DNA from: Polycyclovorans algicola TG408
GTDB lineage: Bacteria; Pseudomonadota; Gammaproteobacteria; Nevskiales; Nevskiaceae
DNA: 64,000 nucleotides
Assembly (NCBI RefSeq): GCF_000711245.1
Contig: NZ_JOMH01000001.1
Coordinates: forward strand, 2,102,830-2,166,829
Direction: 5' to 3'
The position numbers and the translations under genes were made by a program. This document shows, in pieces, positions 2,707-15,519 of this stretch. The notes below the pieces were generated by a model. The model saw only the letters and a program-made list of their open reading frames with translations, did no database searches and was not told where the DNA came from. Positions within the stretch are counted from its first letter, which is position 1. Every line of letters starts with the position of its first letter.

Positions 2707-3927
2707 TTAAGAGGCCATTTTCCGCATCGTCACCACCTTGGAATCACCCCGCGCGAGGCGGTCCAGGTAGTCGGCCCAGGCTTGCATCATCTGGCGCCGC
2801 GCGGCCAGGTGTTCGGCCCGGTTATAGGCGGCCTTCACCTTGTTGCGTTCGGCATGGGCAAGCTGGCGTTCAATGACATCGGGCGGCCAACCCATTTCAT
2901 TCAGTGCGGTGGACGCCATAGATCGAAAGCCGTGGCCGGTCATCTGGCCGGTGGTGTACCCCAGGCGCCGCAGTGCGCCCAACACGGTGTTCTCGCTCAT
3001 AGGCCGCGTGCGGGTGCGGACGCTTGGGAACACGTATTGCCCGCCGCCGGTCAGCGGCTGCAACTCTCTCAGGATCGCAACCGCCTGGACGGCAAGGGGG
3101 ACGATGTGAACAGCCCGCGATTTCATCTTGCCCGCAGGGATGCGCCACTCTGAGGCGTCGAAGTCAATCTCGGACCATTCGGCACGCCGCAGCTCGCCAG
3201 GGCGAACGAACACCAGGGGCGCCAGCTTGAGGGCGCACAGCGTGACGAATGATCCCTTGTACGAATGCAGCACCCGCAGTAGCTCGCCCATGGCCTTGGG
3301 GTCGGTGACGGCGGCGTGGTGCGTTTCCTGTGCTGGGGCGAGGGCGCCACGCAAAGATGTCGTTGGGTCGCTCTGCGCTCGCCCGGTGGCCACGGCATAC
3401 CGAAACACCTGCCCGCAGTTCTGTAAAGCGCGGTGGGCGGTATCGAGCGCGCCACGGCTTTCGACCCGGCGCAGGGCGGCCAGCAGCTCGGGTGGGGTGA
3501 TGTCGGCAATCGGGCGCCTGCCAACCCAAGGGAACACGTCACGCTCAAAGCGACGTTCGATGCGTTCTGCATGCTCGGGTGTCCACGATGCCCGGTACTT
3601 GGTCAGCCACTCCCGCGCGATGGCTTCGAAGCTATCGGCATCAGCCGACACCATCGCGGCCTTGGCCGCCTTTCGCTTTTCGCTGGGGTCGATACCAGCG
3701 GCAATGTCCTTGCGTGCCTGGTCGCGAGCATCACGGGCAGCTCGCAGGGAAACGTCAGGGTAGGTGCCCATGGACAACAGCTTTTCCTTGCCGCCAACCC
3801 GGTACTTCAGCCGCCACCATTTGCCGCCCTTGGGGGTGACCAAAAGAAACAGGCCGCCGCCGTCTGAAAGCTTCAGGGGCTTTGGGCCGGGCTTGGCGTT
3901 TCGGGCTGCGGTATCGGTCAGGGGCAT
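2707..3927 (-). CDS. int: P4-type tyrosine recombinase (integrase)
   Basis: A 406-residue site-specific recombinase. Residues 1-90 form the DUF4102/Arm-DNA-binding domain (LSDGGGLFLLVTPKGGKWW). A SAM-like core-binding domain follows at about 105-190, then the catalytic domain at about 205-380. The catalytic residues are visible: Arg in RPGELRRAEW, Lys in GKMKSRAVHIVPL, His and Arg in HGFR, His in QLAHAERN and the Tyr nucleophile in KAAYNRAEH. It should catalyse integration and excision at the tRNA-Cys site. The gene starts only about 170 bases from the tRNA 3' end, as usual for tRNA-targeted elements. Confidence 0.95.
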   Translation of the reverse strand: MPLTDTAARNAKPGPKPLKLSDGGGLFLLVTPKGGKWWRLKYRVGGKEKLLSMGTYPDVSLRAARDARDQARKDIAAGIDPSEKRKAAKAAMVSADADSFEAIAREWLTKYRASWTPEHAERIERRFERDVFPWVGRRPIADITPPELLAALRRVESRGALDTAHRALQNCGQVFRYAVATGRAQSDPTTSLRGALAPAQETHHAAVTDPKAMGELLRVLHSYKGSFVTLCALKLAPLVFVRPGELRRAEWSEIDFDASEWRIPAGKMKSRAVHIVPLAVQAVAILRELQPLTGGGQYVFPSVRTRTRPMSENTVLGALRRLGYTTGQMTGHGFRSMASTALNEMGWPPDVIERQLAHAERNKVKAAYNRAEHLAARRQMMQAWADYLDRLARGDSKVVTMRKMAS

Positions 3928-4094: not shown

Positions 4095-4168
4095 TGGAGG
4101 CTGGGGTCGGAATTGAACCGGCGTACGCGGATTTGCAGTCCGCTGCATAACCACTCTGCCACCCAGCC
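4095..4168 (-). tRNA. tRNA-Cys (GCA)
   Basis: A 74-base cloverleaf with encoded CCA. The acceptor arms GGCTGGG and CCCAGCC pair fully, the anticodon stem-loop reads GGACT-GCA-AATCC and the T-loop is TTCAATT. One C:A mismatch in the T-stem also occurs in other gammaproteobacterial tRNA-Cys genes as I recall them. The integrase lies beyond its 3' end, which makes this the probable insertion target. Confidence 0.95.
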
Positions 4169-4235: not shown

Positions 4236-4311
4236 TGGAGCGGGTAACGAGGCTCGAACTCGTGACCTCGACCTTGGCAAGGTCGCGCTCTACCAACTGA
4301 GCTACACCCGC
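4236..4311 (-). tRNA. tRNA-Gly (GCC)
   Basis: A 76-base cloverleaf with encoded CCA. The acceptor GCGGGTG pairs with TACCCGC, the D-arm reads TAGCTCAGTTGGTAGAGC, the anticodon loop is TTGCCAA and the T-loop TTCGAGC. In many gammaproteobacteria tRNA-Gly and tRNA-Cys are consecutive genes downstream of pgsA, the same order as here. Confidence 0.97.
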
Positions 4312-4514
4312 TACGTGGCGCGCATTATAGGCCGCCAGATCATTCCGTCAACCGGTTTTTTGCAGATGGGGATCATCCGACTAGATTAATCAGCCCTGTG
4401 GGTGGTCGGGTCATCGGTCAGGTCGTTATTCTGGCTTTGCGTCCTCGCGCACAGGCCCTCACGGCCTCGCCAATTAGGTCAAACCACGCGCCGTCATCAA
4501 GGAGCGAGTTCATT

Positions 4515-5327
4515 TTGAAAAGCATCATCGCCGTGCTGGGTCTGGCCGGCCTGCTTTACTTTCACAACGCTGCGGCGCAAGACCCGGTGGACCGGGCGCT
4601 GGGGACTGCCGAGCGGGCGCAGCGCGATGCCGCAGCGTCGCAGCAACGCATTGATCAACTGGATGACCAGACCCGCGCATTGCTGGAGCGCTACCGCGCC
4701 GCAACCTGGCAGGCGCAGCAGTTGACCGTGTTTGCCGACCAGCTCGAAGCCATCGCCGAGCGGCAGGAAGAAGAGAAGGCCTCGCTACGTCGCCAGATCG
4801 ACGCCATGCAGCGCACCGAGGCCGAGTTGATGCCTTTGATGCTGCGCATGCTCGATGCCTTTGACGCGCTGATCGCGCGTGATCTGCCGTTTCTCGAAAC
4901 CGAACGTGAAGAACGTCTGGCACAAGTCTCGAGTTTGATGAGCGACCCCGACGCCTCGCTGGCGCAGAAGTACCGCCGACTGCTGGAGGCCTACCAGATC
5001 GAGATTGACTACGGCCAGGGGCTGGACGCCGAGCGCGGCCAGATTGGTGAGCGCACCGTCGACATTCTCCGTGTCGGTCGGCTGGCGCTCTACGGCCTGA
5101 CCCTGGACGGCCGAGAGGCGTTTCGCTGGGACCGCGAGGCAGGTGATTGGCAGGTGGCCGATGCCGGGTTGCGACGCACCATCCGCCAGGGCCTGCGCAT
5201 GGCGCGTGACACCGCACCGATTGCATTGCTGCGCCTGCCGGTGGTTGCGCCCGTGGCGGTGCAGGCCAACACACCGCCCGAGGGCGACATGCCATTGGAT
5301 GAAAGCGATGCGGAGGACCCGCCATGA
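4515..5327 (+). CDS. DUF3450 protein, first gene of TonB-TPR operon
   Basis: A 270-residue exported protein of the DUF3450 family. I place the start at TTG 4515 because AAGGAG (4499-4504) precedes it at 10 bases and the product then begins with a clean signal peptide, MKSIIAVLGLAGLLY, cleaved near Ala-Ala-Ala-Gln. Upstream in-frame codons would add a non-signal leader. Residues about 25-130 are a long Gln/Glu/Arg-rich coiled coil. DUF3450 genes regularly precede TtpC-exbB-exbD-tonB sets in gammaproteobacteria; the protein is thought to be periplasmic, with no biochemical role known. It overlaps the next gene by four bases. The 203 bases before it (4312-4514) hold no gene. Confidence 0.85.
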   Translation: MKSIIAVLGLAGLLYFHNAAAQDPVDRALGTAERAQRDAAASQQRIDQLDDQTRALLERYRAATWQAQQLTVFADQLEAIAERQEEEKASLRRQIDAMQRTEAELMPLMLRMLDAFDALIARDLPFLETEREERLAQVSSLMSDPDASLAQKYRRLLEAYQIEIDYGQGLDAERGQIGERTVDILRVGRLALYGLTLDGREAFRWDREAGDWQVADAGLRRTIRQGLRMARDTAPIALLRLPVVAPVAVQANTPPEGDMPLDESDAEDPP

Positions 5328-6688
5328 GCCGCATCACCCGGTTCACCAGGCTGCGCTGGGTTGGCGCCGCCGCGCTGCTGGTGGTCACGCCGCTGCTGGG
5401 TGCCCAGGCCCCGGACCTCAATGCGTTGTTGCGCGAGGTCGAAGAGGCGGCCCGGCAGGGCGGCGAGATCAACCGTGAGCGCGAGGCGCGCTTTGTTCGC
5501 CAGCGCTCCGAGCAGCAAACCCTGCTTCGCGAGGCCGAGGCCGAGCAGAAAAGCGCGCAGGCCCGCATCGACGCCATTCGCGAGGACTTCGAAGCCCAGC
5601 AGGAAGAGATTCAGGCGCTCAAGGCGCAGTTGCGTGACAACGTCGGCGAGCTGGATCAGATGTACGCTGGCATTCGCCAGACCGCCAGCGATCTGCGCGG
5701 CACCGCCAGCGAGTCGCTGATCACCGCCCAGACGCCGGAGCGGCTTGACCTGCTCGACCGCCTCGCTGATGGCCGCGAGCTGCCCGAGATCGACGATCTG
5801 GAAGCGCTCTGGATCACCCTGCTGGAACAGGCCGTCGAAGCCGGGCGCAGCGTCCGGTTCGATGCCGACGTGGTGCAACCGGATGGCGACGCGCAGCGGC
5901 AGTCGGTGGTGCGGGTCGGTCCGTTCACCGCCATGTCACAGGGTCGTTACCTCAGCCTTGACGGCGACGGCCGGCTCATCGCTCTGCCGCAGCAGCCGTC
6001 GTGGGCGTGGACACGCACCGCCTCGGCGTTCGAAGAAGCCGAATCGGGCACGGAATTGGCGATGATCGATCCGTCGCGCGGCTCGCTCTTACGGGTTGAA
6101 GGCGAGCGCCCGGACCTGCTGGAGCGCATTCGCCAGGGCGGCGCCGTCGGCCTGCTGATTCTGGTCATCGGTTTCATCGGCATCGTCATCGCCCTTGTCC
6201 AGTGGCGTTATCTGGCCACTGCCGGCAGCCGCATGCGGCGTCAGTTGGCCGACCGCGAAAACCCGAAACCCAACAACCCGCTGGGCCGGTTGCTGTTGAC
6301 GTTCAGCAATGACACGGCCCCACCGCAAGACGCCGAGCTGATCGAGCTGCGACTGTCGGAGTCGGTGCTGAAAGAGACCCCGCGCATCGAACGCGCCCAG
6401 TCGCTGGTCAAGCTGTTTGCTGCAGTGGCGCCGCTACTCGGGCTGCTGGGCACGGTGACCGGCATGATCGCCACCTTCCAGGCCATCACCGTGTTCGGCA
6501 CGGGGGATCCGAAACTGATGGCCGGCGGCATTTCCCAGGCGCTGGTGACCACGGTGCTGGGGTTGGTGGCGGCCATTCCGCTGCTGTTCCTCAACTCGCT
6601 GCTGGTGGCACGCGCCAAGGTGTTGATCCAGATGCTCGACGAGGCCTCGGCGGTGATGCTCGCCGACCGCATGGAGCGCCTGCCGTGA
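5324..6688 (+). CDS. TtpC-like MotA/TolQ/ExbB protein with periplasmic arm
   Basis: A 454-residue inner-membrane protein. It has an N-terminal signal (residues 1-27), then a long coiled-coil periplasmic region (about 28-140) and a second extracytoplasmic region to about 260. A membrane segment follows (GLLILVIGFIGIVIALVQW), then a C-terminal MotA/TolQ/ExbB domain with FAAVAPLLGLLGTVTGMIATF and a last segment. This is the layout of TtpC, which is required in Vibrio for TonB2-type energy transduction. It is followed by a normal-length ExbB, so the complex has two ExbB-like proteins. Overlap with both neighbours is four bases. Confidence 0.88.
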   Translation: MSRITRFTRLRWVGAAALLVVTPLLGAQAPDLNALLREVEEAARQGGEINREREARFVRQRSEQQTLLREAEAEQKSAQARIDAIREDFEAQQEEIQALKAQLRDNVGELDQMYAGIRQTASDLRGTASESLITAQTPERLDLLDRLADGRELPEIDDLEALWITLLEQAVEAGRSVRFDADVVQPDGDAQRQSVVRVGPFTAMSQGRYLSLDGDGRLIALPQQPSWAWTRTASAFEEAESGTELAMIDPSRGSLLRVEGERPDLLERIRQGGAVGLLILVIGFIGIVIALVQWRYLATAGSRMRRQLADRENPKPNNPLGRLLLTFSNDTAPPQDAELIELRLSESVLKETPRIERAQSLVKLFAAVAPLLGLLGTVTGMIATFQAITVFGTGDPKLMAGGISQALVTTVLGLVAAIPLLFLNSLLVARAKVLIQMLDEASAVMLADRMERLP

Positions 6689-7224
6689 TCGACTGGCTGC
6701 TCGAACCGTGGCTGACCTTGCTCGCCTTTTTCGAAACCGGCGGTCAGGTGCTGCTGTTGATCTTCGCCGCTGCGGTGCTGCTGTGGATGCTGATCCTCGA
6801 GCGCGCCTGGTTCTTCTGGCGGGTGCTGCCCAAGGTCGAGCGCGACGTGCACGCCCACTGGTTTGGCCGTGCCGAGCGCAGCTCGCTGGGTGCGCGGCGC
6901 ATCCGCGAGGCATTGCTTGATCGCATCAAGCTGTCGATGAGCCGCACTCTGCCGACCATCCAGGTGATGATTGCCATCTGTCCCATGCTGGGCCTGCTGG
7001 GCACCGTCACCGGCATGATCCAGGTCTTCGACGTGATGGCGCTCAAGGGCACCGCCGATGCCCGCGCCATGGCCAGCGGCGTGTCGCGCGCCACCATTCC
7101 GACCATGGCCGGCATGGTGGTGGGGCTGTCGGGTCTGTTCTTCATCAACCGCTTTCAGGCGCGCGTGCGGCGCGAGTCGGAGCGTTTTGGCGACACCTTG
7201 AGCGTGCGCGAGGTGACGGCATGA
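6685..7224 (+). CDS. exbB: ExbB proton-channel component
   Basis: A 179-residue MotA/TolQ/ExbB family protein starting at GTG 6685. The first membrane segment is at about residues 18-40, and the two others carry the family signature MIAICPMLGLLGTVTGMIQVF and TIPTMAGMVVGLSGLFFINRF. With ExbD it forms the proton channel that energises TonB. The start overlaps the TtpC-like stop (GTGA) and its stop overlaps exbD (ATGA), so stoichiometric synthesis by translational coupling is likely. Confidence 0.92.
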   Translation: MIDWLLEPWLTLLAFFETGGQVLLLIFAAAVLLWMLILERAWFFWRVLPKVERDVHAHWFGRAERSSLGARRIREALLDRIKLSMSRTLPTIQVMIAICPMLGLLGTVTGMIQVFDVMALKGTADARAMASGVSRATIPTMAGMVVGLSGLFFINRFQARVRRESERFGDTLSVREVTA

Positions 7225-7631
7225 AGATCAAACGCCACGCGCCGCCCAGCGAAGATTCCGGCATCGACCTGACGCCGATGCTCGATGTGATTTTTATCAT
7301 GCTGATCTTTTTTATTGTTACCACCTCGTTCATCCGCGAGGCCGGCATCGAGATCAACCGGCCCAGCGCCGAGACCGCCGAGCGCGAAGAGCGCACCAAC
7401 ATCCTCATCGCCATCTCGCCCGAGGGCGAGATCTGGATTGACCGTCAGCAGGTCGACATTCGCGGCCTGCGCGCCGTGGTGCAGAAGCTGCGCAGCGAAG
7501 ATCCGCAAGCCTCGGTGGTGGTGCAGGCCGACCGCGATGCGCGCGCCGGCCTCATGGTCGAGGTCATGGACCAGGCGCGTCTCGCCGGCGTGCGCGACGT
7601 CGCCATCGCCGCCACGCCTCGGGCCAACTGA
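7221..7631 (+). CDS. exbD: ExbD energy-transduction protein
   Basis: A 136-residue ExbD/TolR protein. It has a short cytoplasmic N-terminus, then a single membrane helix containing the essential Asp in DLTPMLDVIFIMLIFF, then a periplasmic domain that ends in ARAGLMVEVMDQARLAGV. The Asp is the protonatable residue that couples proton flow to TonB movement. Gene order exbB-exbD-tonB and the one-base overlap with tonB show they form one complex. Confidence 0.93.
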   Translation: MKIKRHAPPSEDSGIDLTPMLDVIFIMLIFFIVTTSFIREAGIEINRPSAETAEREERTNILIAISPEGEIWIDRQQVDIRGLRAVVQKLRSEDPQASVVVQADRDARAGLMVEVMDQARLAGVRDVAIAATPRAN

Positions 7632-8374
7632 TGGCCCAGCCGACACCACTGGCGGGCACGCTGCTCGATGACGGCAGCGGCCGGCGCCTGCTGCTGGCCT
7701 CGGTCGGCGCGCTGGGCGTTGCGGTGGCGCTGTTCTTGTGGATGTCGTGGATGACGCGCTCACCGGAAGCGCCGCTGGACGCGCAGCGGCGTAGTCCGCC
7801 GGTGGAGATCGTCAAACCGCCTGAGGAAGAACCCGAGACGGTGGCGTCGATGTTCAGCCCCGAGGCCGAGCCACCCCCGCCACCGGCCGCCCCGCCGGCC
7901 CTGTCGGCACCCAAAGCGCCGCAGGTGAACGTTCCGACGCTGTCGGTCAACGCCGCGCCAATGGGCGACATTGCTGTGGCCGTCAACTCGGGCATCAGCA
8001 CCGGGGTCGGCCTCGCCAATGCCGGTGCCTTCGCCGGTTTTGCCGGCGCCGGCAGTGGCACCGGTGCGGGTGGCAGCGGCACCGGTCGCGGCTTCAGTGG
8101 CCGGCCGCTGGTGCCCCTGTCGACCGCGCGACCGCAGATGCCGGAATGGGCCTGCGACAAAGGCCTGCGCGGCTGGGTCGAAGTGATGTTCACCGTCATG
8201 CCCAGCGGTCGCGTGCAGAACGTCAAACTGATCGACGCCGAGCCGCGCGGCGTGTTCGAAGCCGCCGCGATCGAGAGCATCGGCAACTGGATTTACGAGC
8301 GCGGCAAAGTGGCGCGTGAGGTCAAGCAGCGCGTGCCGATGAATCCTGAAGATTGCGCCTACAACTGGCGATGA
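7631..8374 (+). CDS. tonB: TonB energy transducer
   Basis: A 247-residue TonB-like protein. A membrane anchor lies at about residues 18-38, followed by the acidic Glu-Glu-Glu-Pro-Glu region, a Pro-rich spacer (PEAEPPPPPAAPPALSAP), a Gly/Thr-rich linker at about 130-155 and a C-terminal TonB domain from about 165 (VEVMFTVMPSGRVQNVKLID). Two Cys flank this domain, in WACDKG and PEDCAYNW, and may form a disulfide. It is dedicated to this operon; a TonB-dependent receptor gene is not present in the window. Confidence 0.88.
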   Translation: MAQPTPLAGTLLDDGSGRRLLLASVGALGVAVALFLWMSWMTRSPEAPLDAQRRSPPVEIVKPPEEEPETVASMFSPEAEPPPPPAAPPALSAPKAPQVNVPTLSVNAAPMGDIAVAVNSGISTGVGLANAGAFAGFAGAGSGTGAGGSGTGRGFSGRPLVPLSTARPQMPEWACDKGLRGWVEVMFTVMPSGRVQNVKLIDAEPRGVFEAAAIESIGNWIYERGKVAREVKQRVPMNPEDCAYNWR

Positions 8375-10959
8375 GCGTGCGCCTTCAAGCCCTCATCAAA
8401 AGCCTGCTGGTGCTCATGGCTGTCTGCGCGTCCACCCACACTGCCGCGCAGCAATACCGCAGCGAAGTGCGCGAGCTGGAAACGCCGCCCGACGAAATTC
8501 AACAAACGCCTGAGGCGCTGCTCAAACAGACCACGGACCCGTACCAGCGGGCGCTGCTGCTGCGCGAGATGGCGATGAAGGCGGCCAAGGACGGCGACAA
8601 CGCACGTGCCGCCGAGCTGCTGAATCAGGCACTGGAGACCGACGCCCTGTCCGGGCCTGCGGCCGAACAGATGCGTGAAATGCTGGGGCAGGTACTGATG
8701 GCCGGCGGTGATTTCAAGCGCAACCAGCCGGCACTGGAGGCCCAGGTGAAGCGCGGTGATGCGCCACCCGAAATTCGCGTTGCGCTGGCGGCGGCTTACC
8801 TGCAGGACCGTCGTCATCGCGACGCCATCCCGCTGCTGCGCTCGGCGATCAACGATGTGGAGAACGCCGACATCACCTGGCGTCGCGCCCTGATGGGCGC
8901 CTACCTCGCCACCGACCAGTTCAAGGATGCATTGCCGCTGCTGGAGCAACTGGTGCGCGAGGCGCCGGAGGTACGCGACGACTGGGCGCGGCTGGCGGCG
9001 CTGTACCTGCGCGTCGGCAACAAACGACGCGCGGCGGCGACCCTGGAGCTGGCGCAGCGGCTCGGCTTCATGAATGACGCCAATGACCGGCTGCGGCTGA
9101 TCGGGCTCGCGGCCGAACTGGGCGCGCCTTTCGAGGCGGCCTCGCTGTTGCAAGGCTGGATCGATGACCGGCAGTTGCCCGACGACCGCGGCAATCGTCG
9201 CCTGCTGGCACAGTTGTTCGTCGCCGCTCGCGAAGCGCAGTTGGCCATGCCGGCACTGGGTCGCGCGTTGCAGGATGGCCCTGACGCCGAGCTGTTGCGG
9301 GTGCTGGCGCAACTGCAGATGCAGACCGAGCGCTACGGCGAGGCTGCGCGCTCGGTCGAGCAGTTGATTGCGTTGGAAGGCCCGGCGCCCGAGACCCTGA
9401 TGACCTTGGCCACCGCGCAGTATCAGCAAGCGTCGGTCGACGATGCGCTGGCCAATTTTCGCCGCGCGGCCGCGCGGCCGGGTGAGCAGGCGGCGCTGGC
9501 CCGTGAGTGGGTCAAATATCTGGAGTCGGGGCGGGCGCGCGAGTTGGCGATGACGGCTGCGGCCGAGCGCCGCGAGCGCGTGGTCGAGGATGTGCAGTTG
9601 GCCTCACGACTGGGGTCGGGCGATGGTGCGATTCCAACGCTGGAAGGTGGGGGTGAACGGCAGGCGCGTGCCGCCGCCGAGTCATCGTCCGGACCGCGCT
9701 TCACCCCGGTGGGCGCCGAGCGTGCCGGCAATGCCAGCGGTGAGATCCCGCCTTGGACGGGCGGCATCACGCCCCAGCGTCGCCCGGCCGGATTTGTCGA
9801 CGGCGAGCCGCTGCCCGATCCGTATGCCGACGATGCGCCGTTGTTCGTGATCACCGCCGACAACATGGACCGGCACGCCAAACGGCTGACGCCTTCGCAT
9901 CGGCATCTGCTGAAAAACGTGCCCGGTTACCGGCTGCCGGTGTACCCGACGCGGCGCTCGGTGAGCTATCCGCAGGCGATCTATGACGCCACGGCCAAGA
10001 ACGCCGAGACCGCCACGCTGGACAGTCCGGATGCCCTGAAAGGCGCGCGCCTGGGCTTTCCGTTCCCGCGGCCCGAGACCGGGGTCGAGATCATGTGGAA
10101 CCACCGCACGCGGTATCGCGGTGATTCGGTCGACTTTGAAAACCAGCAGGCGGTGGTGCTGAAAAGCGGTGCGCTGTCCAGCCAGCACAAGCAGGGTTTT
10201 CGGGTCAACTTTCGCTACGGCAACATCCGCGACCCGGCCGATCCCAAGACCGAGAACTACGTCGCGCTGGGCATCACCCAGTTGTCGCCCATGGGGCGCT
10301 CGCCCGACGTCGTGTCGCTGTTCCACGAGACGTTGGATTCCGAGCGCCAGCCGCGCAATATCTGGGTGTTGCTGGCCAGCGCCGGGCGCATGTTCCGCGT
10401 GCCGCCGGTGGGCTACGACCAGCCGTTTCCGGGCTCGGATGGGCTGGAGTTCATCGACATGGTCGACATGTACAACGGCGCCTTCGACCGTTACGTGTGG
10501 CGGCTGGAAGGCAAGCGCGAGATGTATATCCCGTACAACGCCTACCGGCTCAACCTGCCGCCGTTGAAGAACGCCGACCTGCTGCAGCCGCTGGCCTTCG
10601 ACCCTGAGCACACCCGCTATGAGCTGCATCGGGTGTGGGTGATCGAGGCCACCGAGCGCGGCGGCCAACGCCACAGTTTCGGCAAGCGGGTGTTTTACGT
10701 TGATGAAGATTCATGGACGGTGGTCATGGTTGAAAGCCACGACCGCAAGGGCGAACCCTGGCGCTTCCAGGAAGGGCATCTGGTGGCCGAATACGACATC
10801 CAGGCGGCCTGGGCGCGGCCGGTGATCACCTATGACCTGAAGGACGGGCGTTATTTTGCCAACCGGCTGTTTGCCGAGTCTGAGCACTTCGATTACGGGC
10901 TGAAATTTTCCACCAACGAGTTTCTGCCGGCGTCGGTACGTCGCTCCTACAGCCGGTGA
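8371..10959 (+). CDS. TPR protein fused to DUF1329 domain
   Basis: An 862-residue exported protein starting at ATG 8371, which overlaps the tonB stop (ATGA) and begins a signal peptide ending near Thr-Ala-Ala-Gln-Gln. Residues about 45-400 are TPR-type helical repeats, like the TPR protein that usually closes DUF3450-TtpC-TonB loci. From about residue 444 a full DUF1329 domain follows, recognisable from FTPVGAERAGNASGEIPPW, then WNHRTRYRG and the terminal TNEFLPASVRRSYSR. DUF1329 is normally a free-standing periplasmic protein of about 450 residues with a LolA/LolB-like fold, often beside RND transporters. Here the frame is continuous, so the fusion appears real. It links a TonB motor to a possible lipid- or hydrophobe-binding domain; the substrate is unknown. 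Confidence 0.85.
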   Translation: MSVRLQALIKSLLVLMAVCASTHTAAQQYRSEVRELETPPDEIQQTPEALLKQTTDPYQRALLLREMAMKAAKDGDNARAAELLNQALETDALSGPAAEQMREMLGQVLMAGGDFKRNQPALEAQVKRGDAPPEIRVALAAAYLQDRRHRDAIPLLRSAINDVENADITWRRALMGAYLATDQFKDALPLLEQLVREAPEVRDDWARLAALYLRVGNKRRAAATLELAQRLGFMNDANDRLRLIGLAAELGAPFEAASLLQGWIDDRQLPDDRGNRRLLAQLFVAAREAQLAMPALGRALQDGPDAELLRVLAQLQMQTERYGEAARSVEQLIALEGPAPETLMTLATAQYQQASVDDALANFRRAAARPGEQAALAREWVKYLESGRARELAMTAAAERRERVVEDVQLASRLGSGDGAIPTLEGGGERQARAAAESSSGPRFTPVGAERAGNASGEIPPWTGGITPQRRPAGFVDGEPLPDPYADDAPLFVITADNMDRHAKRLTPSHRHLLKNVPGYRLPVYPTRRSVSYPQAIYDATAKNAETATLDSPDALKGARLGFPFPRPETGVEIMWNHRTRYRGDSVDFENQQAVVLKSGALSSQHKQGFRVNFRYGNIRDPADPKTENYVALGITQLSPMGRSPDVVSLFHETLDSERQPRNIWVLLASAGRMFRVPPVGYDQPFPGSDGLEFIDMVDMYNGAFDRYVWRLEGKREMYIPYNAYRLNLPPLKNADLLQPLAFDPEHTRYELHRVWVIEATERGGQRHSFGKRVFYVDEDSWTVVMVESHDRKGEPWRFQEGHLVAEYDIQAAWARPVITYDLKDGRYFANRLFAESEHFDYGLKFSTNEFLPASVRRSYSR

Positions 10960-10961
10960 GG

Positions 10962-11423
10962 TCAGGCCTTTTCGGGTTGTGCGATGACGCGGTCGATCAG
11001 TTTTGCGAAGTCGGGCAGGATGCGTGCCACCTCGGACTCGGCATTGCCGCGAAAGCGCGCGTAGGTTTTGCGAATCAGGTCTGACGAGCCTTCGACGCGG
11101 CGGTCGGCCACGGCAATCATGCCGCTGATGGCCTCGTCGGCATGACGGAGCATCGCGCTACCAAAGGTTTCGGCGGTGCCGCCCTGTTGCAGGTGCTGCT
11201 GGAACAGCGGGTTCAGCGCCTCGGCAAAACCCGGCATCAGTTCATTGGATGCGCGGCGCGCCGCCCCGGGCTTGGCCGCCTTGATCATCGCGTAGCCGGT
11301 ACGGTAGGCCATGCCGGTGAGACCGCTGCGGTCGGCAATGGCTTTTTCCAACAGCGCAGCACCGCCGGCAATCAGGGCTTCGCGTTTGGGTGAGGCCAGT
11401 AGAATCTCGGTCAACGTGGTCAT
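10962..11423 (-). CDS. Conserved hypothetical protein (DUF6918-like)
   Basis: A 153-residue all-helical cytoplasmic protein that starts MTTLTEILLASPKREAL and is built of two similar halves rich in Ala and Arg. The opening pattern, with a GLTGMAYRTGYAMIKAAKPG stretch at about 35-54, resembles a family I remember as DUF6918, of unknown function. It is convergent with the TPR-DUF1329 gene, with only two bases between stops, and divergent from the ABC1 kinase, with 11 bases between starts. The divergent pair may share a promoter region lying within the coding starts. Confidence 0.7.
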   Translation of the reverse strand: MTTLTEILLASPKREALIAGGAALLEKAIADRSGLTGMAYRTGYAMIKAAKPGAARRASNELMPGFAEALNPLFQQHLQQGGTAETFGSAMLRHADEAISGMIAVADRRVEGSSDLIRKTYARFRGNAESEVARILPDFAKLIDRVIAQPEKA

Positions 11424-11434
11424 AAGGGGATGCA

Positions 11435-12853
11435 GTGGGAGATCAAGATGAGTCTGAAAGACGCGGCGCGAAATCTACCATGACGTCGCTCAAGACCAGG
11501 CCATTCGAGCGCAACCTGGCGCTCACCAAGCTCGGCCTGGGTACCGGCGGCCATTTCATTGCCCACAGCATGGCCAACGTGTTTCGCGGCGCTGAGGGCC
11601 GCAAGACTGCCGACCAGGCGTTCTACGTCGAGCGCGCCACCGAACTGGCCGATGCGCTGGGGCAGCTCAAGGGCAGCGTGATGAAGGCCGGGCAGATGTT
11701 GTCGCTTTACGGGCAATATTTTTTGCCGCCAGAAGCGGTGGCGGTACTGTCGGGCTTGCAGGACGACACCCCGGCCGTCGACTGGCGCGTGGTCGCCCCG
11801 GTGCTGGAGCGTGCCATCGGACGTCACCGTATGGCCGAACTGGATATTGACACCGTGCCCATGGCCGCCGCCTCGCTGGGTCAGGCACACCGCGCGCGGC
11901 GCAAGCGGGATGGTCTGGAACTGGTCATCAAGATTCAGTACCCCGGCGTTGCCGATGCCATCGAGAGCGATATTCGTAGCCTGTCACGGTTGGTCGGGCT
12001 TTCGCGACTGGCGCCCAAAGGGCTGGACCTTGACCCGGTATTCAACGAAGTGCGCGAGATGCTGCACCGCGAGGTCGATTACGACAGCGAGGCCAACTTC
12101 ACCAGCGAATTTCAGAAACGGCTGGCCGACGATCCACGTTTCGTGGTGCCACGGGTGATCGGCGATTACAGCAATGACCGCGTGCTGACGACGACCTATG
12201 AGTCGGGTGTGTCGGTGCGGCATGCCGATATCCAGTCGCTCAGCCAGGACCGCCGTGACCGACTGGGCGCGCATTTTCTCGAGCTGTTTCTGACCGAGTT
12301 CTTTGACTGGGGCATGGTCCAGTCGGACCCGCATTTCGGCAATTACCGGATTCGCCCGCGCGACGGCGGCGAAGACCAGATCGTGCTGCTGGATTTTGGC
12401 GCCACCAAGCTGTTCGGCCGGGGCTTCATCGAGTCGTACAGCAACATCGTGATGGGGGCGTTGTCGCGCGATGCCGATCAGATTTTTCGTGGCGCCATCG
12501 ACATTGGCCTGATGGACAAGCGCTTTCCGCCGCAGGTGATGAATGCGTTCGCCGAGTTGTGCATGCAGATCGTCGAACCCTTCGAGGCGCTCGACAGCGG
12601 CCGCATCCCAGCGCACCTGCTGACGCCCGACGGCCTTTACCGTTGGCATGAATCCGACCTGCCGATGCGCGTCGGACGTATCGCTTCGCGCAATGCGCTG
12701 TCGGTGCATTTTCGCGTGCCGCCGCGCGAAATCATTTTTCTGCACCGGCGGCTGGCCGGGGTGTTCGTCATGTTGTCGGCGTTGCGCGCCGAGTTGGCAT
12801 CGCGCGACCAACTGTTGCCGGTGGTGTCGGCGCTGGCCTCCGACGAAGATTGA
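11435..12853 (+). CDS. ABC1/UbiB-family atypical kinase
   Basis: A 472-residue UbiB/ADCK-like protein. Visible motifs are KGSVMKAGQMLSLYG (the KxGQ motif) at about 75-90, AAASLGQAHRA replacing a P-loop, the ATP-binding Lys in LVIKIQYPGV, the catalytic-loop equivalent DPHFGNYRI and DFGATK. The family acts in ubiquinone biosynthesis or lipid homeostasis as ATPases. This is not canonical UbiB, which is longer and carries C-terminal membrane helices, so a different role is likely. GTG 11435 has AAGGGG six bases upstream; ATG 11480 is an alternative start with a weaker ribosome site. Confidence 0.85.
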   Translation: MGDQDESERRGAKSTMTSLKTRPFERNLALTKLGLGTGGHFIAHSMANVFRGAEGRKTADQAFYVERATELADALGQLKGSVMKAGQMLSLYGQYFLPPEAVAVLSGLQDDTPAVDWRVVAPVLERAIGRHRMAELDIDTVPMAAASLGQAHRARRKRDGLELVIKIQYPGVADAIESDIRSLSRLVGLSRLAPKGLDLDPVFNEVREMLHREVDYDSEANFTSEFQKRLADDPRFVVPRVIGDYSNDRVLTTTYESGVSVRHADIQSLSQDRRDRLGAHFLELFLTEFFDWGMVQSDPHFGNYRIRPRDGGEDQIVLLDFGATKLFGRGFIESYSNIVMGALSRDADQIFRGAIDIGLMDKRFPPQVMNAFAELCMQIVEPFEALDSGRIPAHLLTPDGLYRWHESDLPMRVGRIASRNALSVHFRVPPREIIFLHRRLAGVFVMLSALRAELASRDQLLPVVSALASDED

Positions 12854-13625: not shown

Positions 13626-13883
13626 GTGCCGAAGAAGGCCATTCACGACAAGACCGGTGAGGTGACCACCATCACCCTCATTCGAGCCAAAGCGAAGAAC
13701 ACGAGGGTCTATGGACGTCGACCGAATGTGCGTTCTTGGAGGGAGCGAGCGATGGCAGACGCGTCAAGTCCGCATCACAGCGTCGATCTGGTGCCAGAAG
13801 CGTGCGACGACGGCCCTGTCGCCCTGACACCGCCTCGGCAAGAGGTTTTTCTGCAGTTCCAATGGAGTGAGCGCAATGGATGA
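13626..13883 (+). CDS. Small hypothetical protein with strong ribosome site
   Basis: GTG 13626 lies five bases after a near-perfect GGAGGAG (13614-13620) and opens an 85-residue frame that ends at TGA 13883, overlapping the start of the next gene by eight bases. The product is basic at first (MPKKAIHDKTGEVTT), then neutral, with no membrane segment. The ribosome site and the overlap argue for a real, translationally coupled leader gene in the MarR-oxidase-like set, but composition gives no family. A longer in-frame reading from 13557 has no ribosome site. Confidence 0.45.
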   Translation: MPKKAIHDKTGEVTTITLIRAKAKNTRVYGRRPNVRSWRERAMADASSPHHSVDLVPEACDDGPVALTPPRQEVFLQFQWSERNG

Positions 13884-14625
13884 ACAAACCAAGATTTTCT
13901 ACCAAAGATGGTCGATTTACCTCGGCCCGATTTTCGTCATCACCTTCGTGATCTTCTGGGCGTGGATGGGCAAGAACCTGCCGCCGCCGCACCCGGACTG
14001 GCCGGCTGAGGCATTTACCGATCGCTATGTCAACGATCTGGCGTCCATCCGTGTTGGCTTTCTGGTCGCGCTGGTCACCATCTGTTTCTACCTACCGTGG
14101 ACGGCTTACGTGACCACGCGGATGAAGCGCATCGAGACCGGCCCTTACCCGGTGTTGTCGTACCTGCAGCTGATGGGCGGCGCGCTGACGGTGATGGTGG
14201 TGTCCATCAGCATGTGGTGCTGGGTGGTCGCGGCGCAGCGGCCGGAACGCCTGCCGGAGATCACCCAGATGTTGACCGACGCCGGCTGGTTGATGAATGA
14301 CACCGTGTACATGTGCACCACCTTGCAGATGTTTGCGATGGCACTGTGCTTCCTGTCGGACAAGAAGGGCGCGAAAAACCCGGTCATGCCCAACTGGGCC
14401 TGCTACCTGACCATCTTCTGCGGCGCCACCTTCTTCCCTGCCAGCCTGACCGCGGTGCTCCGCGACGGCCCATTTGCCTATGACGGCTTGATCGGCTTCT
14501 GGCTGCCGTATCCGGCATGGCTGATCTGGATGTTTGTTGCCAGCTACTACCTGGTGAAAGACCTCAACCGTCGGGTTCGTGACGGCGAGGACGATGCGGC
14601 AATCACCGACGAAGCGGCGACGTGA
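13876..14625 (+). CDS. Membrane protein next to oxidase III/IV-like genes
   Basis: A 249-residue protein with about six membrane segments (for example IYLGPIFVITFVIFWAWMG, RVGFLVALVTICFYL and GFWLPYPAWLIWMFVASYYL) and a charged C-terminal tail. I chose ATG 13876 because GGAG lies eight bases upstream; GTG 13867 is possible. I do not recognise the family. It directly precedes a heme-copper oxidase subunit III-like and a subunit IV-like gene, and several Trp/Met/His residues lie in or near the membrane segments. A role in the same membrane complex is inferred from position only. Confidence 0.7.
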   Translation: MDEQTKIFYQRWSIYLGPIFVITFVIFWAWMGKNLPPPHPDWPAEAFTDRYVNDLASIRVGFLVALVTICFYLPWTAYVTTRMKRIETGPYPVLSYLQLMGGALTVMVVSISMWCWVVAAQRPERLPEITQMLTDAGWLMNDTVYMCTTLQMFAMALCFLSDKKGAKNPVMPNWACYLTIFCGATFFPASLTAVLRDGPFAYDGLIGFWLPYPAWLIWMFVASYYLVKDLNRRVRDGEDDAAITDEAAT

Positions 14626-14653
14626 GTCTGCGCCGAGCCGACGGGCGCCTCGT

Positions 14654-15250
14654 ATGACGACAGACGCTCAACATACGGCGATGCCCGCTACCCCTCCACG
14701 CCGCCACTTGCCCGGCGTGGAGGGGGTGTGGGTGTTCGTGTTTGCCGACATGGCGGTGTTCGCGGTGATGTTTGGCGCGTTCATGTGGGACCGTCAGCAC
14801 AATCTCGAAGTGTTCGAGGTCAACCGGCAACTGCTGAATGTCGATTTCGGCGGCATCAATACGCTGATTCTGCTCACCAGCTCGATGCTGGTGGTACTGG
14901 CCATCGCCGCGCTCAAGCAGGGTCGCACCCGGCTCGCACCCCCGTTTCTCGCGCTGGCGCTGGCCTGCGGGGTGACGTTCATCGTGCTGAAGGTCATCGA
15001 ATACCGCGAGAAATTCGATGCCGGTATTTCCATGCTGAGCAACGATTTTTTCATGTATTACTTCGTCATGACCGGCATGCACCTCGGCCATGTCGTGGTC
15101 GGCACGGTGATTCTCGCTGCGCTGTGGGCCAAGTCCCGGTCGGCCCAACCCGGCGGCAGCCTCTCCGCTTACGAGGGCGGCGCCACCTATTGGCACATGG
15201 TCGACCTGCTGTGGGTCTGCCTGTTTCCGCTGCTGTACCTGGTGAGGTGA
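14654..15250 (+). CDS. Cytochrome oxidase subunit III-like (CyoC/NorE) protein
   Basis: A 198-residue protein with five membrane segments in the heme-copper oxidase subunit III pattern: WVFVFADMAVFAVMFGAFM opening the first helix, NTLILLTSSMLVVLAI, then a TGMHLGHVVVG helix and the closing YWHMVDLLWVCLFPLLYL. The His and Glu of the family are present. Subunits I and II are not encoded nearby, as in the NorE accessory type. ATG 14654 is chosen since the longer frame adds a basic non-family leader. Subunit IV follows after five bases. Confidence 0.85.
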   Translation: MTTDAQHTAMPATPPRRHLPGVEGVWVFVFADMAVFAVMFGAFMWDRQHNLEVFEVNRQLLNVDFGGINTLILLTSSMLVVLAIAALKQGRTRLAPPFLALALACGVTFIVLKVIEYREKFDAGISMLSNDFFMYYFVMTGMHLGHVVVGTVILAALWAKSRSAQPGGSLSAYEGGATYWHMVDLLWVCLFPLLYLVR

Positions 15251-15255
15251 TCGCG

Positions 15256-15519
15256 ATGAACCGTGCCTTCGTAACGGTTGTGGCGGTTTGGCTGCTGCTG
15301 ATGGTCAGCACTGCCGCCTCCACCTGGTGGTTCTCGCAGCCGATGTTCGCGCCCAAGGTCGCCACGGTGCTGGTGATGATCGTCGCGGCGGTGAAGGTCG
15401 CATTGGTGATGTCGCATTTCATGGAACTCAGGCGCGCACCACGGGCGTGGCAGGCGGCTGGGGCCATCTGGATCGTCGGCGCCGCCGCCTCGGTGATGAC
15501 CATCTACCTGATTTTTTGA
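15256..15519 (+). CDS. Cytochrome oxidase subunit IV-like (COX4_pro) protein
   Basis: An 87-residue protein with three membrane segments. The central part holds the prokaryotic subunit IV signature VKVALVMSHFMELRRAP (PF03626). It starts at ATG 15256 behind AGGTGA and ends the operon. CyoD- and NorF-like small subunits assist oxidase or nitric oxide reductase assembly. With no catalytic subunit in the window the partner is unknown. The 268 bases after it (15520-15787), before the convergent isocitrate dehydrogenase gene, contain no convincing gene or terminator. Confidence 0.82.
   Translation: MNRAFVTVVAVWLLLMVSTAASTWWFSQPMFAPKVATVLVMIVAAVKVALVMSHFMELRRAPRAWQAAGAIWIVGAAASVMTIYLIF

Follow-up and report, generated by a model that had tools for sequence, protein, structure and literature searches.

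To our knowledge, the route by which hydrophobic molecules cross the periplasm, and the source of energy for this passage, are open for most Gram-negative bacteria. Here we describe an operon of Polycyclovorans algicola TG408 that may bear on both, located in a stretch of 64,000 nucleotides (contig NZ_JOMH01000001.1, positions 2,102,830 to 2,166,829; hereafter the window, in which positions are counted from the first letter). In this operon, a periplasmic tetratricopeptide repeat (TPR) protein of the TtpD type, part of a TonB system, continues in frame into a complete DUF1329 domain. The closest described machinery is the TonB2 system of Vibrio (TtpB2-TtpC2-ExbB2-ExbD2-TonB2-TtpD2), which has the same gene set, with TtpB first and the TPR protein last; according to passages of PMC6957404, its TtpD2 is an unfused protein of 425 amino acids (aa) from an iron-induced operon and is required for TonB2-dependent uptake. 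In contrast, the corresponding protein in the window has 862 aa and carries a LolA-like domain, and the TonB encoded beside it, unlike TonB2, has no Tyr in its Tyr-Pro motif and bears a conserved C-terminal motif.

Other TPR proteins or TPR fusions, the vWA transducers and PorE, are tied to ExbB/TolQ-type motors, as here, but no LolA-like or DUF1329 domain is described for them in the passages of PMC12204202 concerned with them. DUF1329 is a Pfam family of unknown function. Its stand-alone members AmeB of Castellaniella and PP_0766 of Pseudomonas putida share the Pfam family and the full-length domain with the fusion; they are single-domain secreted proteins without TPR or TonB, whereas the fused domain lacks its own signal peptide and lies within a TonB operon. 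As far as the relevant passages go, AmeB matters for growth on monoterpenes (PMC6394551), deletion of a DUF1329 gene impairs growth on phenanthrene (PMC13101534, citing Shetty et al.), and DUF1302 and DUF1329 genes are required by P. putida to use Tween 20, the DUF1329 protein being modelled in touch with DUF1302 and efflux partners (PMC10866462). Similarly limited passages report that growth on a C28 alkane brings a 42-fold rise of a Thalassolituus protein combining MMPL and LolA-like domains (PMC6304351) and that loss of TonB disables an Aeromonas efflux pump (PMC8082627). A TPR-DUF1329 fusion is not named in the titles, abstract openings and passages of open-licence literature on DUF1329, DUF3450, TtpC/TtpD, and MMPL/LolA with TonB.

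The fusion is the last gene of a run of six tightly packed genes on the + strand (4398-10959), TtpB-TtpC-ExbB-ExbD-TonB-fusion, with the following features:

4398..5327, + strand: TtpB (DUF3450), PF11932 at 239.6 bits; the listed GTG start is doubtful and the true start probably lies further downstream
5324..6688, + strand: TtpC, ExbB-like with a long N-terminal region, PF01618 at 98.1 bits over residues 332-439
6685..7224, + strand: ExbB-type proton channel subunit, PF01618 at 84.3 bits
7221..7631, + strand: ExbD, PF02472 at 108.6 bits
7631..8374, + strand: TonB variant of 247 aa, PF03544 at 34.9 bits
8371..10959, + strand: TPR-DUF1329 fusion of 862 aa, from the translated open reading frame and Pfam
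8371..8451, + strand: Sec-type signal region of the fusion, residues 1-27, by eye from the sequence and alignment
8509..9615, + strand: TPR superhelix, residues about 47-415, from Pfam TPR matches and AlphaFold2 helices
9583..9687, + strand: low-confidence linker, residues about 405-439, overlapping the end of the last TPR helix, with a predicted local distance difference test (pLDDT) score below 50
9688..10956, + strand: complete DUF1329 domain, residues 440-862, from PF07044 and the domain model
10072..10956, + strand: LolA-like core of DUF1329, residues about 568-862, from structure matches to 9tp6 and 4z48

The window operon thus contains the TonB2-type gene set (DUF3450-TtpC-ExbB-ExbD-TonB-TPR) in one run, but it deviates from a plain TonB2-type operon in its last gene, which encodes 862 aa with DUF1329 and not an unfused TPR protein of about 400-490 aa; it is a variant of the TonB2-type system rather than a plain member. 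We propose, with a probability of roughly 0.5, that it represents a TonB2-type system that has become specialised through the fusion of its TPR subunit with a LolA-like carrier of hydrophobic molecules.

The ATG of the fusion overlaps the stop codon of tonB, which ends at 8374, and translation of 8371-10959 yields 862 residues with no internal stop. An earlier note on this DNA, made from the letters alone, had claimed that the TPR gene continues in frame into a full DUF1329 domain, and this was borne out: one open frame holds both parts, with TPR-type Pfam matches inside residues 68-365 and a PF07044 match of 363.5 bits (cut-off 23.1) over residues 493-856, which spans positions 1-367 of the 368 of the profile. 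The note placed the domain start at about residue 444; more exactly, a conserved N-terminal region of the domain begins near residue 440, but the LolA-like core covers only residues 568-862 or so. The GC content at third codon positions is 0.73-0.92 along the gene, and that at second codon positions climbs to 0.58-0.70 near the linker (residues 361-480), because the linker is rich in Ala, Gly, Pro and Arg. Signal peptides were judged by eye. Cys19 of the signal region is unconserved (L120 has no Cys), and therefore the protein is not read as a lipoprotein; no hydrophobic segment precedes the DUF1329 domain, and hence there is no second signal peptide. At the predicted mature N-terminus, the conserved QYRSE (residues 28-32) is a candidate docking peptide, with Gln28 and Tyr29 invariant across 16 aligned fusion rows.

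To see how far the fusion extends, 85 genomes of the order, a 369-genome sample of the class and a 398-genome sample of the phylum were searched. The latter two samples were drawn from larger groups, with two candidates per genome scored under an E-value limit, and distant fusions may therefore be missed; moreover, many genomes are incomplete, which makes absence weak evidence. A fusion frame spanning both domains was found in 58 of the 85 order genomes, belonging to families f1-f4 and one genus of f6. Contig ends truncate the copies in G069 and G054, and G061 (f5) shows the end of a fusion at a contig edge. The search turned up none in G070, in any of the 16 genomes that make up genera g17 and g21 (f6), or in nine f1 genomes whose completeness is 76-94%. 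Among the candidates scored in the class sample, only G000 (the window genome), G060, G195 and G311 carry the fusion, G195 and G311 being from one family (f117) of another order; in the phylum sample, no fusion beyond that of G000 was found among the candidates scored. The closest named relative of the fusion is from Polycyclovorans sp. SAT60 (84% identity). As a separate observation, G034 carries two fused operons (L143 and L144), with wax ester synthase/DGAT and DUF1302 genes near one of them.

This spread bears on the possibility that the fusion arose by an assembly error or by recent stop read-through between two neighbouring genes, the refutation that the earlier note had itself foreseen. 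A single frame covering both domains in 58 order genomes and in two of f117, with the linker kept in place, already refutes this possibility, and we consider its remaining probability negligible. Separate adjacent TPR and DUF1329 genes replacing the fusion were seen in none of the loci read. Between relatives, the identity of linker residues 401-442 is only 0.54 and 0.32, its position being kept and its sequence not. Nonsynonymous and synonymous divergence (dN/dS) was 0.086/1.01 for the TPR part and 0.077/0.63 for the DUF1329 part in comparison with L040, and 0.33/1.15 and 0.25/0.88, respectively, in comparison with L120, values indicating that both parts are under purifying selection. We conclude that the TPR-DUF1329 fusion is confirmed as real and not an artefact, and that it is old. 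Two candidate counterexamples were rejected: an apparent DUF1329-only copy in G061 (402 aa, 60% identity, no TPR) is a gene cut by the contig end, and an apparent unfused orthologue in G070 (contig C74) turned out to correspond to the second of the TonB operons in G064, a congener (L142, L201).

AlphaFold2 prediction of the full-length fusion (input alignment of 51 sequences, 5 of them full-length fusions) gave a mean pLDDT of 88 and a predicted template modelling (pTM) score of 0.58, with two confident domains, first a TPR superhelix and then a beta domain, on either side of a low-confidence stretch at about 405-439 that is read as a short disordered linker; the low pTM leaves the relative placement of the TPR and DUF1329 domains open. 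For residues 440-862 alone, for which the earlier note had suggested a prediction, a confident fold was obtained (pLDDT 93, pTM 0.93). The C-terminal 295 residues matched LolA3 of Porphyromonas gingivalis (9tp6) with Z 21.9, 2.5 A, 238 residues and 19% identity, and also the solved DUF1329 protein 4z48 with Z 19.5 over 236 residues, in line with the LolA/LolB-like fold that had been expected. LolA and LolB rows gave Z mostly about 7-8 (11.5 for P. gingivalis LolB) at about 4-11% identity, in a comparison in which Z under 8 may reflect a common arrangement only. LolA3, LolA and LolB have their fold in common with the fused domain, which differs from them by an extra N-terminal region of about 130 residues, and the likeness to lipoprotein carriers is one of fold alone. 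In alignments, many residues conserved in stand-alone DUF1329 proteins are retained in the fused form. Matches to RseB/MucB and to porin-like structures (Z 5.6-7.2) were set aside as common arrangement. That RseB and MucB, which use a LolA-like domain in sensing or regulation, appear among the fold matches would fit a fused LolA-like domain acting as a sensor or regulator that reports lipid or lipoprotein status to the TonB complex instead of carrying cargo; however, their matches are weak (Z 5.6-6.1) against those of LolA3 and the DUF1329 structures (Z 19.5-21.9), and the stand-alone DUF1329 of this genome that is most closely related belongs to a set of transporter genes, so that we regard a sensory role as improbable.

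The second feature that sets the operon apart is its TonB, which the earlier note had read as ordinary. It turned out to be a distinct variant, without the Tyr of the usual Tyr-Pro pair and with a C-terminal motif of its own, at two sites identified by alignment and motif count:

8120..8155, + strand: TonB residues 164-175, STARPQMPEWAC, with QMP in place of the canonical QYP, and with Cys175
8345..8371, + strand: TonB C-terminal motif PEDCAYNWR, residues 239-247, with Cys242

The window TonB is a member of the TonB_C family, and a profile of the variant matches 2k9k (TonB2) and 1u07, the match stopping before the C-terminal end. The Tyr-Pro motif is present both in E. coli TonB 1u07 (PQYP) and in the solved TonB2 2k9k (PVYP). 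By comparison, in the 59 TonBs from fused operons the residue at the Tyr place is Met in 48, Ile in 10, Phe in 1 and Tyr in 0, the typical sequence being STARPQ[M/I/F]P as against QYP in the TonBs of unfused operons; the Pro that follows is replaced by Ser in L128 and L147. The C-terminal motif [D/E]-[C/Y/F]-x-x-[N/D]-[W/Y] occurs in 59/59 fused-operon TonBs and in 0/5 unfused-operon TonBs, two of these five being near-identical. The position after the Tyr-Pro site and that in the C-terminal motif are occupied by Cys/Cys in 49 TonBs, by two aromatic residues in 9 and by His/Phe in 1 (L147). Cys/Cys is found in most of f1 and also in L131 of f6, while the f1 member L128 has Tyr/Tyr, and therefore the two positions change together. 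The pairing suggests that the TonB end folds back on the domain, in most species possibly through a disulfide. A longer tail was considered as the distinguishing feature and rejected: fused-operon TonBs end only 5-8 columns later in the alignment, the window TonB 5-6 columns beyond the five unfused-operon ones, and E. coli TonB likewise has residues beyond its last strand. It is the conserved motif, not length, that marks the variant.

Searched against the 369 class genomes, the variant C-terminal profile gave full-length matches of 143-170 bits in the four genomes with the fusion and in no others, and the next score was 76.6 bits. Seven of the ten runner-up loci could be scored (L209, L212 and L213 were unreadable by the motif pattern), and all seven TonBs have [Y/W]P and no C-terminal motif. 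Co-variation in the aligned sequences shows that the TonB changed along with the fusion. The end of the TonB domain is the site where the Ton boxes of receptors pair, and a change there is therefore expected to change the partner.

Within the same genome, two more complete TtpB-TtpC-ExbB-ExbD-TonB-TPR operons were found, both unfused:

L186, unfused operon, at 366-384 kb of contig C1 of G000
L187, unfused operon, at 2.678-2.694 Mb

Their TPR proteins have 389 and 487 aa and no DUF1329 domain and, together with the 404-aa proteins of L142 and L201, agree with the claim that an unfused TPR protein, of about 390-490 aa, is the usual last gene of such operons. Because the genome has these two unfused operons as well, the fused form is a specialised third system and not the general design of TPR subunits in this genome. 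In passing, L187 includes two ExbD-type genes (9581-10479, - strand).

These data can be set against the reading that the fused operon is an ordinary TonB2-type system for uptake of iron or nutrients, in which DUF1329 would be an accessory that, for instance, receives a hydrophobic siderophore or substrate after its passage through a receptor. The gene set is that of TonB2, whose TPR subunit is needed for siderophore uptake according to passages of PMC6957404; the genome encodes 18 receptor plug domains, and passages of PMC6304351 propose that long-chain alkanes are taken up through a TonB-dependent receptor. On the other hand, the window contains no plug domain, the nearest lying about 136 kb from the operon, and the two unfused operons, with TonBs of the QYP type, could serve the receptors. 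Furthermore, a scan with a 19-bp Fur-box consensus, a test of little power, gave no signal in 13 fused or 5 unfused operons: for every fused operon, at least 27 of 100 shuffles were as good as the best upstream site, and the unfused operons did little better, the best being L186 with 8 of 100 shuffles as good. Based on this balance, an ordinary uptake role appears unlikely, although it deserves to be kept in view.

We then return to the preferred reading, a TonB2-type system specialised through a fused carrier, for which the origin of the domain is informative. A maximum-likelihood tree of 71 DUF1329 domains was built with a midpoint root. It included 18 fused rows, one being the cut G061 copy, and 10 downstream stand-alone domains from 9 loci; the own-genome DUF1329 of L181 was left out and three distant own-genome ones were partly aligned. 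The 18 fused domains fall on one side of a branch with support 100/99, and the group next to them (joint branch 100/99) consists of 14 rows that include all 10 sampled stand-alone DUF1329s from downstream of fused operons. The rest of this group are the own-genome DUF1329 of an MMPL-DUF1329-DUF1302-YCF48 gene set (L182) and three proteins from Polycyclovorans and Solimonas. The simplest reading of the tree would be that the gene was duplicated locally once and then fused once, no second signal peptide being carried along. Both this grouping and the TonB variant go beyond the earlier note, whose interpretation, a TonB machine linked to a hydrophobe-binding domain, is partly supported.

The surroundings of the fusion were surveyed in 60 loci that hold one, 53 of which include 4.5 kb upstream, 51 include 4.5 kb downstream and 46 include 7 kb upstream; each neighbour count hinges on similarity to one or two reference proteins. 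On the same strand upstream of the fusion, TtpC, ExbB and TonB occur in 53/53 loci, ExbD in 51/53 and TtpB in 48/53, the automatic detection of TtpB having missed 5 of the 53 (in L166 its match is merged into the TtpC frame). In all 59 loci in which TonB was found, the fusion follows it downstream, on the same strand. The two genes adjoin directly in 49 of these loci and are about 1.3 kb apart in 10, all of genus g3; in L138, the g3 locus examined, the gap (6692-7939) encodes a Na+/H+ exchanger. Some fused operons have no ExbD between ExbB and TonB, namely L129, L130 and L140 of f3 and L193 and L043 of f117. Downstream of the fusion (51 loci), an ABC1/UbiB-type kinase was found in 35 loci and DUF2505 in 32; 27 loci have a DUF6918 gene in antisense orientation, and 23 have a stand-alone DUF1329. 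Two of these conserved neighbours are present in the window:

10962..11423, - strand: DUF6918 gene, conserved antisense neighbour, PF21893 at 119.6 bits
11435..12853, + strand: ABC1/UbiB-type atypical kinase, conserved neighbour, PF03109 at 189.1 bits

Two further observations concern the flanks of the window operon. Just upstream are a tyrosine integrase (2707-3927, - strand), a tRNA-Cys (4095-4168, - strand) and a tRNA-Gly (4236-4311, - strand); this region is possibly the edge of an integrated element, which may have split off former upstream neighbours of the operon. Further downstream, 13867-15519 encodes a protein that belongs to no Pfam family; genes resembling those for cytochrome oxidase subunits III and IV come next.

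In some relatives, genes for possible partners of a carrier lie close by. An MMPL transporter gene is found upstream of the fused operon in 13/46 loci (on the other strand in L128), in 4/46 together with a LolA-like gene, and there the pair stands directly before TtpB (three loci of f4, one of f6). The MMPL of L127 (15433-18156, - strand), whose companion is a LolA-like protein, carries a cyclic-nucleotide-binding domain at its C terminus. MMPL matches at E <= 1e-40 were obtained in 63 of the 85 order genomes, with 10 candidates scored per genome; G070 was dropped because its matches were paralogue-like (about 200 bits or less), leaving 62. Both an MMPL orthologue and the fusion are present in 56 genomes, the fusion only in 2 (G007 and G011), MMPL only in 6 (including G061) and neither in 21. 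As the genomes are related, Fisher's test on these counts is not meaningful as a probability. The informative cases are g17 and g21, which have neither, and G070, likewise with neither, whose congener G064 has both side by side. Among the 56 genomes with both, the pair is on one contig in 28 and within 15 kb in 16, against a chance expectation that we put at about 0.4 for genomes of 4 Mb.

Genes for DUF1302, the outer-membrane barrel found with DUF1329 in other settings, occur within about 7 kb of the fused operon, on either strand, in four of the 60 loci (L132, L143, L145 and L166). This nearness, the contact with a DUF1302 barrel modelled for P. putida DUF1329 in passages of PMC10866462 and the TonB variant, which suggests a dedicated partner, could also be taken to mean that the DUF1329 domain carries no ligand and has a structural role, as a spacer or adaptor by which the TonB complex is anchored to a barrel of the outer membrane such as DUF1302. 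We give this idea only a small chance, since the fused form retains many residues that are conserved among stand-alone DUF1329 proteins, a hint that the barrel of the domain is still used.

How would a specialised, carrier-bearing TonB2-type system work? By analogy with TtpD2, which TonB2-driven uptake in Vibrio needs, the TPR part is the probable docking element that holds the carrier on the TtpC/ExbB/ExbD/TonB complex driven by the proton motive force. The flexible linker would let the DUF1329 barrel swing, and the barrel could pass a hydrophobic molecule, such as a lipid, a fatty acid or ester, a hydrocarbon or a steroid, between membrane partners. Likely partners are an inner-membrane MMPL-type RND transporter with its LolA-like protein, and an outer-membrane DUF1302 barrel. 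The changed C-terminal domain of TonB may pull on a partner of the system's own, where an ordinary TonB would act on a general TonB-dependent receptor. How the carrier docks, what it binds, in which direction and with which partner it works, and how energy is coupled are all inferred. As the system is kept through most of the order, we lean to a common lipid or fatty compound over a particular pollutant. A more far-reaching and rather doubtful version holds that this TonB machine serves no receptors at all, and that the proton motive force would act through the rebuilt TonB on the tethered LolA-like carrier, with DUF1302 and MMPL, as a mechanical shuttle of lipids or other hydrophobic molecules across the envelope.

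Several observations weigh against a hydrophobe carrier working with MMPL and DUF1302 partners. Over the first 20 kb that the scan covered, the window operon has no MMPL, LolA-like or DUF1302 gene beside it, and the MMPL/LolA pair of the same genome (L199, MMPL at 9029-11752) sits 75 kb away. The earlier note's remark that DUF1329 often travels with RND exporters stands for some of the stand-alone DUF1329 genes of this genome, which lie beside MMPL and DUF1302, but not for the window operon. In the vicinity of L193 (f117), no MMPL, ABC1 or second DUF1329 was found. The co-occurrence with MMPL amounts to few independent events, because 16 of the 21 genomes with neither belong to two closely related genera; MMPL occurs without the fusion in five genomes besides G061, and G007 and G011 have the fusion without an MMPL orthologue. 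Proximity to DUF1302 is limited to the four loci named. Finally, the operon is widespread in the order and not picked by a hydrocarbon trait, and the cargo may be a housekeeping lipid.

The operon also draws attention to positions in its TonB, Cys175, Cys242 and the lost Tyr, that may carry specificity. More generally, it joins a DUF1329 carrier covalently to a TonB energiser in nature, through most of an order and with a matching change in TonB, and it leads to a definite and testable hypothesis, that pulling driven by the proton motive force may load or unload the carrier.

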